64,000 nucleotides of DNA from Treponema sp. (GTDB taxonomy: Bacteria; Spirochaetota; Spirochaetia; Treponematales; Breznakiellaceae): positions 111,631-175,630 of the forward strand of contig WRLP01000001.1 in NCBI GenBank assembly GCA_009777535.1, given 5' to 3'. Both the position numbers and the translations under genes were made by a program. Positions 29,913 through 36,094 of the stretch are shown here, one piece after another. Each line of letters opens with the position of its first letter. Positions within the stretch are counted from its first letter, which is position 1. The notes under the pieces are model-generated. The model had not been told where the DNA came from. It ran no database searches and saw only the letters and a program-made list of their open reading frames with translations.

Positions 29913-30893
29913 CTAATGAGCCCACCTTTCTAAAAGCCGTTCTTTTTCCGAAAGGCTTTCAATTCCCCTCATATCGGCTATCCTGACATTCCGTGGATAA
30001 TTGGGAATGTTGTTTTCCTGGATTTTAAGAATTCTCTCCGGGGCAAAAAGCTCTTTGTCTTCGCGGGTCAGTGTATTCATATAAAAATCAAAAACTTCCT
30101 GTACAGCTTTTCTGGTTTCCTTACCTTTGATAATGCCCATTCCGTAAACCGTATAAGGCGCACCTTCCTCAAAATACATTATTCTTAAAGGTACTCCCCT
30201 GTCGTTTATTGCAGTTACCGCAGTCAGAGTTAGTCCAAGGCCAATGCCCGCCTCGCCCTGGATAAGGGCGTTTACGGGGCCGGAGCCCGACGAGGTAAAC
30301 TGTAATACGTTATCCGCAAATTTATCAAAATACTCAAAAGCCTCATCTTCTCCCCATACATTCACCAGATTTTTCAAGAAGAAATAACCTGTCCCCGATG
30401 ATTTGGGGTTAGGCATGGAAAGCATCCCCCTGTATTCCGGTTTTAAAAGATCCTGATACGATCCGGGCAATGCAACATTTCGTGCTGAAAGAAAACCCTC
30501 ATTAACAATAATGCAGCCGACGCTTAGAACAAACGGCATATATTTCTTGTGGGCAGGAATCAGTTCATCCAAAAAGGCGGAACTGTCGTAAGAAGAAAGA
30601 TCGGCCAGATTGTCAATTATGCCTTCAAGATATGAGGATTCCAGCTCACCGATAATGTCGCAATCCGTTATTGTTCCTTCTGCTTTTAATTTTGCAGCCA
30701 GGTTTCCCGTTGTCATGTAATTAATCAGCACAGAGTATTGGGGAAATTGTTCACTGAGCCGCTTCTGAAAGTACTCGATACGGAAATCCTCTGATGTGGA
30801 AAAAATCAGAACCTCGTTGGATTCCTTTTTGGCACATGAGGCTGCTGTTCCAAGTATTGTCAGCAAAGCTGTCAGGTACAACAGTTTTTTCAT
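29913..30893 (-). CDS. Orphan ABC-type substrate-binding lipoprotein, iron/spermidine-like class
   Basis: 326 residues from MKKLLYLTALLTILGTAASC (lipobox TAASC), with GGGAG seven bases before the ATG. A start eight codons upstream is less likely. The mature part reads as a type II periplasmic binding protein: EVLIFSTSEDFRIEYFQKR, CDIIGELESSYLEG, GMLSMPNPKSSGTGYFFL, NALIQGEAGIGLGLT and a PYTVYGMGIIKG region. It resembles the Fe(III)/2-aminoethylphosphonate/spermidine binders. No permease or ATPase is adjacent, so it either serves a distant transporter or feeds a sensor. Ligand unknown. Confidence 0.82.
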   Translation of the reverse strand: MKKLLYLTALLTILGTAASCAKKESNEVLIFSTSEDFRIEYFQKRLSEQFPQYSVLINYMTTGNLAAKLKAEGTITDCDIIGELESSYLEGIIDNLADLSSYDSSAFLDELIPAHKKYMPFVLSVGCIIVNEGFLSARNVALPGSYQDLLKPEYRGMLSMPNPKSSGTGYFFLKNLVNVWGEDEAFEYFDKFADNVLQFTSSGSGPVNALIQGEAGIGLGLTLTAVTAINDRGVPLRIMYFEEGAPYTVYGMGIIKGKETRKAVQEVFDFYMNTLTREDKELFAPERILKIQENNIPNYPRNVRIADMRGIESLSEKERLLERWAH

Positions 30894-30910
30894 TTTAATT
30901 CTCCCTGGTT

Positions 30911-30954
30911 TGTTCATTTTACCTATTATACAATGTAAAAATGAACATTGTCAA
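30911..30954 (-). promoter_or_regulatory. Promoter of the binding-lipoprotein gene with a flanking inverted repeat
   Basis: On the minus strand, TTGACA (30954-30949), an 18-bp spacer and TATAAT (30930-30925). The arms TGTTCATTTTAC (30911-30922) and GTAAAAATGAACA (30935-30947) enclose the -10 box, as expected for an operator that blocks RNA polymerase. Confidence 0.65.
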
Positions 30955-31032: not shown

Positions 31033-32259
31033 ATGGTTTTTTTTCCACTATATATCGATCCCGGTACAGGAAGCGCTCTTTTTTCTATCGCAATAGGCAT
31101 TGCGACCGTGGGGTATTTTCTGTTCCGGGCTTTTATCATAAAGCTTAAAGTTTTTCTTTTTCGCGGCACGGAGGCGGAACAATCACAGAATAACTATGTA
31201 ATTTATTCAGAAGACAGGCGGTACTGGCCTTTTTTCCAGCTCATTCTTGATGAATTTGAATCACGCGAGACGGAAGTCCTGTATCTTGCCAGTTCCGGCG
31301 ACGATCCGGTATTTTCTGCTGAATATAAATATATAAAAAGCAAATTCATCGGCAAAGGTAATAAAGCGTATGCCTTCCTTAATTTTCTGTCCGCCGGCTT
31401 TGTTTTGGCAACTACAACAGATCTTGATGTACTTCAATGGAAGCGTTCAAAAAAAGTAAAGCATTATTGCCACATGTTTCATGGTGTCGGCGGCTCCATG
31501 CTGTACCGCCTTTTTTCACTGGACTATTATGATTCTGTTCTTCTTTCAGGGGAAAATGAAATACCGGAAATACGTTATTTGGAGAAGCTGCGCAAGCTTC
31601 CAAACAAGCAGTTGGTTGTTGCCGGGAATACATATTTTGACAAATATGTTGAAGAGCTGAAAAATATCCCAAAAGAAGAAGCCCATCCCTTCACTGTTCT
31701 TGTATCTCCTACATGGGGGCCTTCCGGCTTGCTGAAAGTATACGGAGAAAAGCTGCTTGATCCACTTGCCGATACAGACTGGCGCATAATAGTACGGCCT
31801 CACCCCCAGTCATCTATCGCAGAAAAAGCGATGCTCGAAAGACTTGTCGAACGGTATAAAAACAATACAAATATTGAATGGGATTATAATGACGACAATA
31901 TTAATACGCTTAGTAAATCGGATGTTATGATATCAGATTATTCGTGTATTGTTTTTGATTATATTTTTTTGTTCGACAGGCCGGTACTGCTTGGTCTTCA
32001 AACTTTGGATTTTCGGCCTTTCGATGCATATAATCTGGAGCATGAGCCGTCCTTTTATCAAATTATAAAAAAAGTCGGCATGGAATTCAATGAATCAAAT
32101 CTCGGTTCGATTAAGGAAACCATATCCGGTCTGGTGCAAGATACAGCATTGCAGCAAAACCGGGAGGAAGCAAAAATGCTCATGTGGCAGCACCAGGGGG
32201 AATCTGCAAAACGCATTGCAGATTTTATGATTGAAACTGTAAATAAAGAAGCAAATTAA
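31033..32259 (+). CDS. CDP-glycerol glycerophosphotransferase family protein
   Basis: 408 residues from MVFFPLYIDPGTGSALFSIA. The frame is open further upstream but would run into the divergent promoter. After an N-terminal helix with the DPGTGS motif it shows the TagB/TagF pattern: CHMFHGVGGSM, VAGNTYFDKYV, PTWGPSGLL, IVRPHPQS, and SDVMISDYSCIVFDYIFLFDRPVL with the conserved S-D-x-S. The family moves glycerol phosphate from CDP-glycerol onto teichoic or other glycans on the cytoplasmic face. It overlaps nothing and is followed after 2 bp by the YidC-like fusion, so the two probably act together on an envelope polymer. Confidence 0.8.
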   Translation: MVFFPLYIDPGTGSALFSIAIGIATVGYFLFRAFIIKLKVFLFRGTEAEQSQNNYVIYSEDRRYWPFFQLILDEFESRETEVLYLASSGDDPVFSAEYKYIKSKFIGKGNKAYAFLNFLSAGFVLATTTDLDVLQWKRSKKVKHYCHMFHGVGGSMLYRLFSLDYYDSVLLSGENEIPEIRYLEKLRKLPNKQLVVAGNTYFDKYVEELKNIPKEEAHPFTVLVSPTWGPSGLLKVYGEKLLDPLADTDWRIIVRPHPQSSIAEKAMLERLVERYKNNTNIEWDYNDDNINTLSKSDVMISDYSCIVFDYIFLFDRPVLLGLQTLDFRPFDAYNLEHEPSFYQIIKKVGMEFNESNLGSIKETISGLVQDTALQQNREEAKMLMWQHQGESAKRIADFMIETVNKEAN

Positions 32260-32261
32260 TT

Positions 32262-34820
32262 ATGGCCAGTGTTTTATATACTGTACTTATCTATCCCATT
32301 GAACAGCTAATACAGCTTTCCTATGTATTTTTTTTCCGTGTTTTCAATAATCCGGCCCTGTCGGTACTGGGCGTTTCTTTTGCCGTAAGCATGCTTACTT
32401 TGCCCCTGTACTTCATGGCAGAAAAGCACCGGAACTCAGAGCGTGAGGCGCAAAAAGCAATGCTGCCGGATGTAAGCAACATAAAGGCCGTTTTTTCCGG
32501 CGATGAACGCTTTATGCGCCTTAATACATATTACCGGCAAAAGGGATACCACCCCCTGTATTCCCTGCGATCAAGCATTTCGTTAATTATTCAGATACCC
32601 TTTTTTATTGCCGCGTATCATTTTCTTTCCAATCTGGAAATAATAAAGGGCGTTTCTTTCGGCCCCATAAAAGATCTTGCAAGGCCGGATTCACTTTTTA
32701 TGATTAAGAATGTTTCGCTTAACATTCTGCCCATTGCCATGACCTTAATCAACTGTGTAGCAGCGCTTGTTTATACAAAAGGCCTGTATTTAAGGGATAA
32801 AATCCAGCTTTATGGCATGGCTGCGGTATTCCTGGTTCTGCTTTACAATTCCCCATCGGGAATGGTGCTTTACTGGACCGGCAACAATATTTTTTCGTTG
32901 ATTAAAAATATTATTCAAAGAACAAAGATAAGGAATATTATCCAAAAGATAAATTTTGGAAAGAAAATGCAGGTTCTTCCTAAAACAGAAGAAAAACAGA
33001 TTTTTACCGGATGCACAACAATATTTATTTTGTCATCTATTATATTATTCCTGATTTGCGCCTATACAATACCATCTGAATTGATTGCATCTTCGGTCCA
33101 GGAATTTTCCTATACTGAAAATTTCGAGAGCCCCTTCCCGTTTATTTATAATATTTTATTGCAGTCTTTTGGCCTGTTTCTTTTATGGCCTGTTTGCATA
33201 TACTTCATGTTCGCCAAAAATGCAAGAATGGTTTTATCTTTTATTGCGGCTGTTTTTGCCGCCATTGCCATTGTAAATGTATTTGTTTTTCCAAGGAATT
33301 ACGGTCCTCTTACATTGCTGTTTACCTTTCCGACAGCTCCGGTTCATGAAAAAATTACAATAATTTTTAATATTATTGGCATGATCGGCGCCGCTGCAGC
33401 GGTACTTTTATTATTTCGTTATTACAGAAGAACAATGGCGCCTGTCTTGTCCATAGCCGCTTGTGCATTATTCTTGTTTGGCACAATAAACTGCGTTAAC
33501 ATTTACAGTGAATTTAATTCTTTTCGATTACAGCTAACAAGAGACAGGGTTACCCGGGATAGACCTGCATATCGGTTTTCAAAGAAAGGAAAAAATGTTT
33601 TATTGATAATGCTTGACAGGGCAATAGGCGGTTACTTACCCGCTATTTTGGATGAAAAGCCGGAATTACGGGAAGCATTCAGCGGTTTTACCTGGTACAA
33701 AAACACCATTTCTTTTGGACCGCATACAAATTATGGGATTTCTTCACTATTGGGCGGCTATGAATACACTCCTCTGCAAATGCAGATAAAAAAAGATCAG
33801 GCATTGAAAGATAAACACAACGAGGCTCTTTTACTGCTGCCCAGATTATTTATGGATAACGGCTTTGATGTGTCCATAACCGACCCTACCTACGCCAATT
33901 ACAGCTGGGTTCCTGATTTAAGTATTTTTGAAGATTATCCGCAAATTAATGTAGAAAATATCGTTGGCAAGTACACCAATAAATGGCTGCTTGAAGAAAA
34001 CAGAAAACTCAAGGTAGAAAACATAAGTGAAAAAATAAAACAACATTTAATCCGGTTTTCTCTTTTTAAATTTACCCCGCTGTTTCTGCGGAATTTTATT
34101 TATGATAATGGTAAATGGCTGATACCTGGTTATGCTCCCATACCATTGGCTTCGGATACTTATATAGCTTTGGATATTTTACCATCCATTACCGAAATAA
34201 CAGAGAACAATACAAACAATTACAATATGCTTGCCAATGATCTGGCGCATGAAGCATTTTTTTTACAGGCTCCTGAATATATCCCAACAAATGAAGCAAT
34301 TGTTTATAGTGACAGCCCTTTTGCCATGGATGTCCAGTATCATGTCAATATGGCGGCAATGCTTTTGACCGGAAAATGGCTTAACTTCTTAAAGGAAAAC
34401 AATGTATTCGATAATACCAGAATAATTATTGTTTCTGATCACGGCTATATTATGCAATATAATGTACCGGAAAATATTATTCTGCCGAACGGGAGACAGC
34501 TTTTTGTCTACACTGCCCTGCTTATGGTAAAAGATTTTAATGCCAGGGGAGCCCTGACAGCCAGCGATATATTTATGACAAATGCCGATGTTCCTCTTAT
34601 TGCGCTTGACGGTATAGTTGAAAATCCGGTAAATCCGTGGACTGGCAAAATACTCGAAGCCGATAAATCAGACGGAGTAATCATAACATCATCCAACTTA
34701 CCATGGCTTAACCAGCATCCTGAATATCAGTTTAACATCAGGCCAAATGAATGGCTGCAAGTCCGCGATAATATTTATGATTTGGCAAACTGGAGACGGC
34801 TGACAATAAATCCGGATTAG
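32262..34820 (+). CDS. Fusion of a YidC/Oxa1-like domain and a sulfatase-fold (phosphoglycerol transferase-like) domain
   Basis: 852 residues in three parts. Residues 1-230 read as a YidC/Oxa1 insertase core (IYPIEQLIQLSYVFFF, VSMLTLPLYFMAEKH, YHPLYSLRSSISLIIQIPFF, GMVLYWTGNN). Residues 250-420 hold several further transmembrane helices. Residues 440-852 read as an alkaline phosphatase/sulfatase fold: KNVLLIMLDRAIGGY (first metal D), GPHTNYGISSLLGG (probable Thr nucleophile) and IIIVSDHGY (D-H metal ligands). It has no C/S-x-P-x-R formylglycine site, so it is closer to LtaS/OpgB-type phosphoglycerol transferases than to true sulfatases. Placed behind a glycerophosphotransferase. Confidence 0.8.
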   Translation: MASVLYTVLIYPIEQLIQLSYVFFFRVFNNPALSVLGVSFAVSMLTLPLYFMAEKHRNSEREAQKAMLPDVSNIKAVFSGDERFMRLNTYYRQKGYHPLYSLRSSISLIIQIPFFIAAYHFLSNLEIIKGVSFGPIKDLARPDSLFMIKNVSLNILPIAMTLINCVAALVYTKGLYLRDKIQLYGMAAVFLVLLYNSPSGMVLYWTGNNIFSLIKNIIQRTKIRNIIQKINFGKKMQVLPKTEEKQIFTGCTTIFILSSIILFLICAYTIPSELIASSVQEFSYTENFESPFPFIYNILLQSFGLFLLWPVCIYFMFAKNARMVLSFIAAVFAAIAIVNVFVFPRNYGPLTLLFTFPTAPVHEKITIIFNIIGMIGAAAAVLLLFRYYRRTMAPVLSIAACALFLFGTINCVNIYSEFNSFRLQLTRDRVTRDRPAYRFSKKGKNVLLIMLDRAIGGYLPAILDEKPELREAFSGFTWYKNTISFGPHTNYGISSLLGGYEYTPLQMQIKKDQALKDKHNEALLLLPRLFMDNGFDVSITDPTYANYSWVPDLSIFEDYPQINVENIVGKYTNKWLLEENRKLKVENISEKIKQHLIRFSLFKFTPLFLRNFIYDNGKWLIPGYAPIPLASDTYIALDILPSITEITENNTNNYNMLANDLAHEAFFLQAPEYIPTNEAIVYSDSPFAMDVQYHVNMAAMLLTGKWLNFLKENNVFDNTRIIIVSDHGYIMQYNVPENIILPNGRQLFVYTALLMVKDFNARGALTASDIFMTNADVPLIALDGIVENPVNPWTGKILEADKSDGVIITSSNLPWLNQHPEYQFNIRPNEWLQVRDNIYDLANWRRLTINPD

Positions 34821-34840: not shown

Positions 34841-36031
34841 TCAGTAGCCTTTAATTTTATTCCCGAACAGCATGTTCTGATAACAGCGCAGGCAGCCGGG
34901 GAATAAACCGCCATCGCACTGATGAATGGTTTTTCTGAAGCGGTTTGCGCGGTCTCCGTTTAATATTTCCCTAAAAGGCTTCTGCGTGATATTGCCTAAA
35001 ATGTAATCGGGGTAGTCAGCGCAGAAATGAACATCGCCGTTGTAGTTAACATTGGCCTGGCACCAGGGGACAATACAGTGGTTGCGTACCGGAGTTTGGA
35101 GGTCTGCGTAATATGTGTGAATTTTTTCCGGATTAAGTGCAGGGACCGTGATCATCGGATGACCGTAATCCTTTTTATGTATGTTCTGTAAAATATCGTG
35201 CAGCTTTTTACCGTCGATGCCCAGATTGTAGCCTGTGTTATAGGCTTCCAGACAATCAATATCCGTGTCGAATTTTTCCAGCATAAAGCGGCGCTGCTCG
35301 GCGACTATGCTGTCGTTTGTATATGTCCCAAGGTTAAACATATGCAGATCGATATCGTATTCCCTGCTCGCTTCGGCCAGGGCGTCCAGATATAAATAAT
35401 TTTTATTGGTAACAACCGTAACGATTCCCAGCAAGGGAATTTTGGATTTCTGCTTCTTTTTTTCGCGGTTGATTGCCTTAAACCCTTCGATGACCTTGTC
35501 GTAGGAACCTGCACCGCGCATTTCATCGTTAACATCGCGGAATGCGTCCAGCGAAACAAAAATCGTACTCCACTTGTCGCGTACAATTTCTTCGGCATAT
35601 TTTTCCATCAAAGTGCCGTTGGTATTAACGCTTACAAAAAGGCCCTTCTCCACCATGTATCTGGCAAGCGGGATTAGGTCTTTGTAAAGGAAGGGTTCGC
35701 CGCCCCAAATATAGGTTACAGGTCTTTGCGGTGCGATTTCATCAATGAATTTTTTCCAGGTTTCCATTGGCAGAACTTTTTTTATCTCTTCGCCGACGCA
35801 TTCTTTCATTACGCCCTTGTCGCCGAACTGCCCGCACATGACGCATCGAAGGTTGCACGCAGGCGTCAGCTTAAAATAAACCAGGGCAAGGTCCTTAAAG
35901 TGATCGTAATTATAATCATGTTTCGGGAAGAAACGGGCTTTGCCCATTTTAAAAAATCCGTAAAACATTTTCGCGGATAATTTCAAATTATTTTTAAATA
36001 AAAGGGGAACCACCGATATATTTTCTTTCAT
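34841..36031 (-). CDS. Radical SAM protein with a SPASM domain
   Basis: 396 residues. Radical SAM cluster motif in LTPACNLRCVMCGQFG (CxxxCxxC, about residue 50), GGEPFLYKDL and VNTNGTLME, then a C-terminal SPASM-type cysteine set (CIVPWCQANVNYNGDVHFCAD, and CDGG..PGCLRC near the end). The start is the ATG five bases after GGAG (36031). It is convergent with the fusion gene (20-bp gap). SPASM proteins modify peptides or enzymes. No target peptide is visible nearby. Confidence 0.88.
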   Translation of the reverse strand: MKENISVVPLLFKNNLKLSAKMFYGFFKMGKARFFPKHDYNYDHFKDLALVYFKLTPACNLRCVMCGQFGDKGVMKECVGEEIKKVLPMETWKKFIDEIAPQRPVTYIWGGEPFLYKDLIPLARYMVEKGLFVSVNTNGTLMEKYAEEIVRDKWSTIFVSLDAFRDVNDEMRGAGSYDKVIEGFKAINREKKKQKSKIPLLGIVTVVTNKNYLYLDALAEASREYDIDLHMFNLGTYTNDSIVAEQRRFMLEKFDTDIDCLEAYNTGYNLGIDGKKLHDILQNIHKKDYGHPMITVPALNPEKIHTYYADLQTPVRNHCIVPWCQANVNYNGDVHFCADYPDYILGNITQKPFREILNGDRANRFRKTIHQCDGGLFPGCLRCYQNMLFGNKIKGY

Positions 36032-36094
36032 CAAATCTCCAAAGTTGCTATATTATATCTCTATTATAAGTATAATACTTTTTTTTGTAAGAGT

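Follow-up and report, generated by a model that had tools for sequence, protein, structure and literature searches.

What does a protein do that carries a membrane insertase core and a phosphotransferase domain in one chain, and what does it transfer? The question is raised by two adjacent genes in a stretch of 64,000 nt (the window) from Treponema sp. (Breznakiellaceae), assembly GCA_009777535.1, contig WRLP01000001.1:111,631-175,630, forward strand. The fusion gene, FUS (32262..34820, + strand), encodes an 852 aa protein consisting of a YidC-like core, a second block of five helices and a sulfatase-fold phosphotransferase domain. It starts 2 bp past PARTNER (31033..32259, +), which encodes a 408 aa membrane-anchored GT-B enzyme of the Glyphos_transf (TagF/TagB-like) family. 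PARTNER and FUS probably work together as a module of two genes, adding a small headgroup activated by cytidine triphosphate (CTP) to exported glycans or lipids. The headgroup would be phosphocholine, 2-aminoethylphosphonate (AEP) or an amino-alcohol phosphate, and perhaps glycerol or ribitol phosphate in some loci. The architecture of the fusion, the pattern of its catalytic residues, the pairing of the two genes and their linkage to CTP-headgroup genes were computed directly.

Architecture of the fusion protein

The structure of FUS was predicted with AlphaFold2 from an alignment of 75 sequences, in which residue invariance was also scored. The model (predicted local distance difference test (pLDDT) 91.4, predicted template modelling score (pTM) 0.85) has helices at residues 2-220, a helical block at 241-429 and an alpha/beta domain at 437-852. 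Three regions, all on the + strand, are recognized: a YidC/Oxa1-like core (aa 1-220, 32262..32921) from profile, alignment and model, a second transmembrane (TM) block (aa 241-429, 32982..33548) from model and conservation, and a sulfatase-fold catalytic domain (aa 440-852, 33579..34817) from profile, model and fold match. The full-length prediction and the profiles recovered the gene positions and the succession of YidC-like core, extra helices and LtaS/OpgB-like domain that a first-pass annotation of the window had claimed. A profile built from 33 fusions matches solved YidC structures through its N-terminal part (8e-10) and sulfatases and LtaS through its C-terminal part (4uoo, 3e-4). All rows of the fold searches with the full model (Foldseek and VIA) fall on the sulfatase domain, and the YidC assignment rests on sequence profiles. 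Mean pairwise identity is 55% in the YidC-like core, 41% in the sulfatase-fold domain and 27% in the middle helices.

The C-terminal domain lacks the marks of a true sulfatase. FUS scores 18.2 bits against PF00884 (Sulfatase, Pfam), under the cut-off of 25, and the putative nucleophile position holds a Thr, not the Cys or Ser that becomes formylglycine. A Thr nucleophile marks LtaS, OpgB and EptA type enzymes; sulfatases use formylglycine made from Cys or Ser. Five residues are invariant in 75 of 75 fusions: D452 (33615..33617, putative metal ligand), T489 (33726..33728, putative nucleophile, Thr as in LtaS and EptA, its role taken from knowledge of the superfamily), H663 (34248..34250) and D726-H727 (34437..34442, putative metal ligands), all on the + strand. 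Their equivalence to LtaS residues was judged by motif, position and order, not by superposed coordinates. As in LtaS/EptA-type enzymes, the sulfatase fold lies behind a five-helix membrane block, and the conserved Thr is accompanied by putative acidic and His metal ligands. Residues 442-849 align with LtaS (Z 19.7, root mean square deviation (rmsd) 3.9), and many sulfatases match as well. A longer segment, 237-850, aligns with PbgA/YejM, which has five TM helices and a sulfatase fold (Z 20.2, but rmsd 13.5 over 402 residues). Judged by these residues, the catalytic domain resembles that of a phosphotransferase.

Among the nearest folds are phosphonate monoester hydrolases and choline sulfatase, as would be expected if FUS were a phosphodiesterase that takes headgroups off lipids or glycans, or recycles them. 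However, the nucleophile is an invariant Thr instead of a formylglycine Cys/Ser, and two membrane blocks together with co-operonic CTP activation genes suit a transferase; a phosphodiesterase is highly improbable. A radical SAM/SPASM gene (34841-36034, - strand) lies convergent with FUS and was not found to recur beside other pairs. A sulfatase matured by this neighbouring gene was considered and ruled out on the Thr nucleophile, the convergent orientation and the lack of a recurrent neighbour.

The N-terminal part is, on profile evidence, a true YidC/Oxa1 core. Residues 34-218 match PF02096 (60KD_IMP, Pfam; E 2.6e-19, 70.2 bits, cut-off 35), and FUS falls below the insertase model TIGR03592 (70.3 bits, cut-off 84.3). 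One groove position is Arg in E. coli YidC, by alignment, and Lys in 15 of 15 usable, correctly oriented canonical YidC rows from the order of the window organism. The same position in FUS is Ser43 (32388..32390, +), and it is uncharged (Ser, Asn, Thr or other) in 187 of 187 fusions. A separate full-length YidC (201 bits) is encoded elsewhere in the window genome, and canonical YidC was also found in 55 of the 60 relatives searched. Because the groove charge is absent from all fusions examined and the genome has a separate YidC, FUS is not the housekeeping insertase, and the insertase-like function read from the first-pass annotation is not supported. The fusion core has a near-invariant set of its own: Y50, A53, R61, D81, E82, D143, N154, M160, T161, N208 and K215.

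The PF02096 match over the cut-off, and a core better conserved than the catalytic domain, could still be taken to mean that FUS is a dedicated insertase or chaperone for proteins of the cluster, its ordinary YidC part having been fused by chance to a phosphotransferase. This is very unlikely. Compared with YidC/SpoIIIJ, with which it shares the PF02096 core, FUS lacks the positive groove residue, is fused to a transferase, occurs as several paralogues per genome beside a second, canonical YidC-type protein, and keeps invariant polar residues that are peculiar to the fusions.

Pairing with PARTNER and distribution

PARTNER matches PF04464 (CDP-glycerol glycerophosphotransferase; CDP, cytidine diphosphate) with 36.1 bits over a cut-off of 22.1, and its model has a GT-B fold (pLDDT 89; AlphaFold2, Foldseek). 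At the N-terminus are a membrane helix and the motif YIDPGTG, which never varies and in nearly all homologues continues to YIDPGTGS; motifs of the RPHPQS and SD.MISD.S types are also kept. Its true start is the ATG at 31033, because homologues begin at the same M..YIDPGTGS motif. The GTG start called by the program at 30796 overlaps the divergent gene.

The pairing was examined in 199 relatives, FUS being called at a best E below about 1e-38. FUS was found in 76, PARTNER in 75 and both in 69 (odds ratio 192, p 9e-38). Of the 90 PARTNER genes in the fetched loci, 69 have a FUS no more than 150 bp away, and in each of these 69 pairs the two genes share a strand. Both gene orders occur among the pairs (35 and 34), and many of them overlap by 4 bp. 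The first-pass annotation had placed a CDP-glycerol-type transferase directly upstream of a YidC-like fusion and had asked for the same pair across spirochaetes; the family match, the 2 bp gap, the YidC-like N-terminal sequence and the conservation of the pair (69 of 76 FUS-bearing genomes also hold PARTNER) bear this out. Some loci have two to four FUS genes per single PARTNER, which fits PARTNER making a shared donor for several acceptors.

The window genome itself has a second FUS/PARTNER set, located in a glycan cluster with GDP-heptose-type genes (GDP, guanosine diphosphate; locus L004). Between the second FUS and the second PARTNER (L004:12197-15113) are GHMP kinase, SIS isomerase and nucleotidyltransferase-HAD genes resembling the GDP-heptose pathway.

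At least 568 relatives came out of a wide scan of 84,980 species genomes, and the best 79 loci were kept. These best 79, nearly all matched over the full length of FUS, include Treponema bryantii, many Treponema metagenome-assembled genomes, Lachnospiraceae, Butyrivibrio, Oscillospiraceae, Saccharofermentans and Schwartzia succinivorans DSM 10502, and it is from them that the spread in Bacillota is known. A system confined to spirochaetes, as the first-pass annotation had pictured it, is ruled out, with full-length fusions across Clostridia and in Schwartzia and the same pair wide in Bacillota. A search of the phylum also found FUS in distant spirochaete families, one with up to seven matches per genome. 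In the tree built from 129 fusions, a fully supported branch separates the 40 Bacillota sequences from the others, and the window sequence groups with its own genus and family; no recent exchange between spirochaetes and Bacillota was seen in this sample.

Neighbour genes and the headgroup

The genes beside the pair point to the chemistry of the headgroup. In two Clostridia loci (L128, L142) LicC, the choline kinase LicA and a LicB-like permease lie directly upstream, in the order LicC-LicA-LicB-PARTNER-FUS, and L148 and L158 also have these lic genes close to the fusion. One of the nearest relatives of the window gene, from the same genus (L040), has a LicC/LicA fusion, a BCCT choline-family transporter (413 bits), PARTNER and FUS. 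Locus L055 contains a run of solute-binding protein (SBP), ATPase, permease, LicC, PARTNER and FUS; in L055 and L202 a PhnSTU2-type ATP-binding cassette importer occurs with a LicC that carries a winged-helix domain.

Phosphonate genes form a second group. PepM, phosphonopyruvate decarboxylase (Ppd) and PntC-PhnW are near the pair in L063, L102, L109, L110, L145 and L204. The most complete AEP version is a single gene run in L204:1-19900, SBP-PepM-Ppd-PntC/PhnW-PARTNER followed by three tandem FUS genes, whose binding protein is related to the window's divergent SBP. A system with phosphonate as its only substrate was ruled out: PepM is absent from the window genome and from more than half of the FUS-bearing relatives. 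A third arrangement, a LicC-type cytidylyltransferase fused to a CobD/HisC-like aminotransferase, lies beside the pair in many loci of both phyla (L061:13134-14960, L094:10742-12733, L144:12086-13882, L151:4921-6726 and others). These fusions may turn a phospho-amino acid directly into CDP-ethanolamine or CDP-aminopropanol.

The association also holds in counts, with statistics that ignore kinship: at least one CTP-activation route is present in 69/76 relatives with FUS versus 31/123 without (p 8e-21), and an activator gene stands at the locus in 47/113 FUS loci versus 1/20 random windows (p 9e-4). Among genomes at least 90% complete the route is present in 48/52 with FUS and 11/53 without. 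The lone positive control window (L170, G022:C6:60000-79900) overlaps the lic locus of a fusion-bearing genome, which probably explains it and makes that control conservative.

Membership of PARTNER in PF04464 and the likeness of the C-terminal part of FUS to LtaS could suggest a teichoic-acid-like route, in which CDP-glycerol supplies the glycerophosphate that PARTNER adds or polymerises, and FUS acts as a glycerophosphate transferase of the LtaS kind. A TagD/RfaE-like cytidylyltransferase does lie between PARTNER and FUS in L048:694-1167, with 45 bits to the glycerol-3-phosphate model TIGR01518 (cut-off 165); a stand-alone TagD-like gene in L063, 2.3 kb from a fusion, scores 112 bits, also under that cut-off; and TarI-like genes are one to several kb from the pair in a few loci. 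However, TagD-like genes are rare near the pair, and no glycerol gene was found beside it in the compact lic operons L128 and L142. Because activation genes for choline, AEP and amino alcohols are far commoner neighbours, glycerophosphate is less supported, and the teichoic-acid-like route is unlikely. For the substrate of PARTNER, too, the genomic neighbours favour other headgroups over that of CDP-glycerol. The two-step route of the first-pass annotation, a cytosolic step followed by transfer outside, stands as a general idea, with a CTP-activated donor; glycerophosphate as its product does not fare as well, though it may apply in places.

The supply in the window organism itself probably begins with import. 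The gene divergent from PARTNER (29913..30917, - strand) encodes an SBP_bac_6 lipoprotein nearest to PhnS2, of the 2-aminoethylphosphonate importer type, under the model cut-off. Homologues of it recur adjoining PARTNER/FUS, and it is a probable headgroup capture protein. Ahead of this gene is a perfect consensus sigma-70-type promoter (30925-30954, - strand; TTGACA, 18 nt, TATAAT). The lipoprotein is in the same family, PF13343, as AepX and AepS, which belong to transporters with demonstrated AEP uptake (PMC8316502), but PF13343 has other substrates too. Another contig of the genome, C26 (L167:7271-11542), carries PhnS2-PhnT2-PhnU2-like importer genes followed by a winged-helix LicC homologue, a compact import and activation operon whose binding protein is a paralogue of the window's divergent SBP. 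The closest solved structure to this LicC homologue is the CTP:phosphocholine cytidylyltransferase 1jyk (5.8e-27), with PntC 6pd1 at 6e-13. Given this importer with LicC, and the paralogous SBP divergent from PARTNER, the window organism probably imports and then activates a headgroup that is already phosphorylated or a phosphonate: AEP, phosphocholine or phosphoethanolamine.

Several observations weigh against decoration with such a CTP-activated headgroup. An activator gene is within the fetched stretch for just about 42% of the FUS loci, and many of these loci are glycan clusters, where common cytidylyltransferases could serve other steps. The genome-level association of FUS with an activation route was computed without regard to phylogeny. 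The TagD-like gene inside the L048 operon leaves room for glycerophosphate there. In the window organism PepM and choline kinase were not found in an assembly that is 93% complete, and the scores of the C26 PhnS2/T2/U2-like genes are all under the curated cut-offs.

Proposed route and relation to known systems

From this material we infer the reactions of the two enzymes, a carrier and an acceptor, the part played by the YidC-like core and the exact headgroup. A headgroup X would be imported or made, and a cytidylyltransferase of the LicC/PntC type would convert it to CDP-X or CMP-X (CMP, cytidine monophosphate). PARTNER would take CDP-X or CMP-X in the cytosol and load X onto a membrane carrier. 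On the outer side, the sulfatase-fold domain of FUS would first bind X covalently at Thr489, in the manner of LtaS or EptA, and then pass it to an acceptor. The YidC-like core keeps a distinct set of invariant polar residues and probably serves to hold or translocate the loaded carrier, or as a docking site for PARTNER; its part as holder or translocator is the least certain step.

FUS shares with LtaS/LtaP five TM helices, an extracytoplasmic sulfatase-fold domain, the Thr nucleophile and the metal-site pattern, the sequence similarity being confined to short stretches. LtaS/LtaP lack the extra YidC-like core of five TM helices, the near-constant Glyphos_transf partner and the choline and AEP neighbours. 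EptA/MCR and PbgA/YejM also combine a membrane block with a periplasmic domain of the alkaline phosphatase superfamily, but lack a YidC core; EptA uses phosphatidylethanolamine and has no CTP-activation operon dedicated to it, and YejM is regulatory.

The LicABCD phosphocholine and Pnt/AEP surface tailoring systems use the same supply genes as the FUS loci: LicA, LicB, LicC, PepM, Ppd and PntC-PhnW. LicD is found in few FUS loci; PARTNER and FUS occupy its usual place in these gene sets. Most bacterial phosphonate biosynthesis is thought to serve the tailoring of cell surfaces, with the later tailoring steps not known (PMC6697681). Rice et al. (2019) described phosphonyl tailoring after PepM as enigmatic and identified the cytidylyltransferases, with mention of neither YidC nor a sulfatase (PMC6697681). 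AEP was also found in the type A flagellin glycan of Clostridioides difficile (PMC8861647), a possible precedent for a surface structure that carries phospho-linked amino compounds. A search of the open-licence literature, a weak negative, found no description of a YidC-sulfatase-fold fusion; a decoration route through such a fusion and PARTNER would be one not described before.

The first-pass observation holds, on firmer ground than its author could see; the interpretation given with it was right in outline and probably wrong in headgroup and taxonomic scope. More tentatively, a core of the YidC/Oxa1 superfamily may have been recruited from protein insertion to present or translocate a lipid-linked or nucleotide-derived headgroup to a fused phosphotransferase. 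It would then perform the final step of AEP and LicD-independent phosphocholine tailoring in gut spirochaetes, Brachyspira-like spirochaetes and Clostridia. Surface phosphocholine on commensals and pathogens is important in host recognition. A conserved pair in the place of LicD, in choline and phosphonate gene sets of two phyla, provides a concrete gene to test; if the proposal is true, FUS would be, to our knowledge, the first YidC-family protein that is part of a polar-headgroup transferase.

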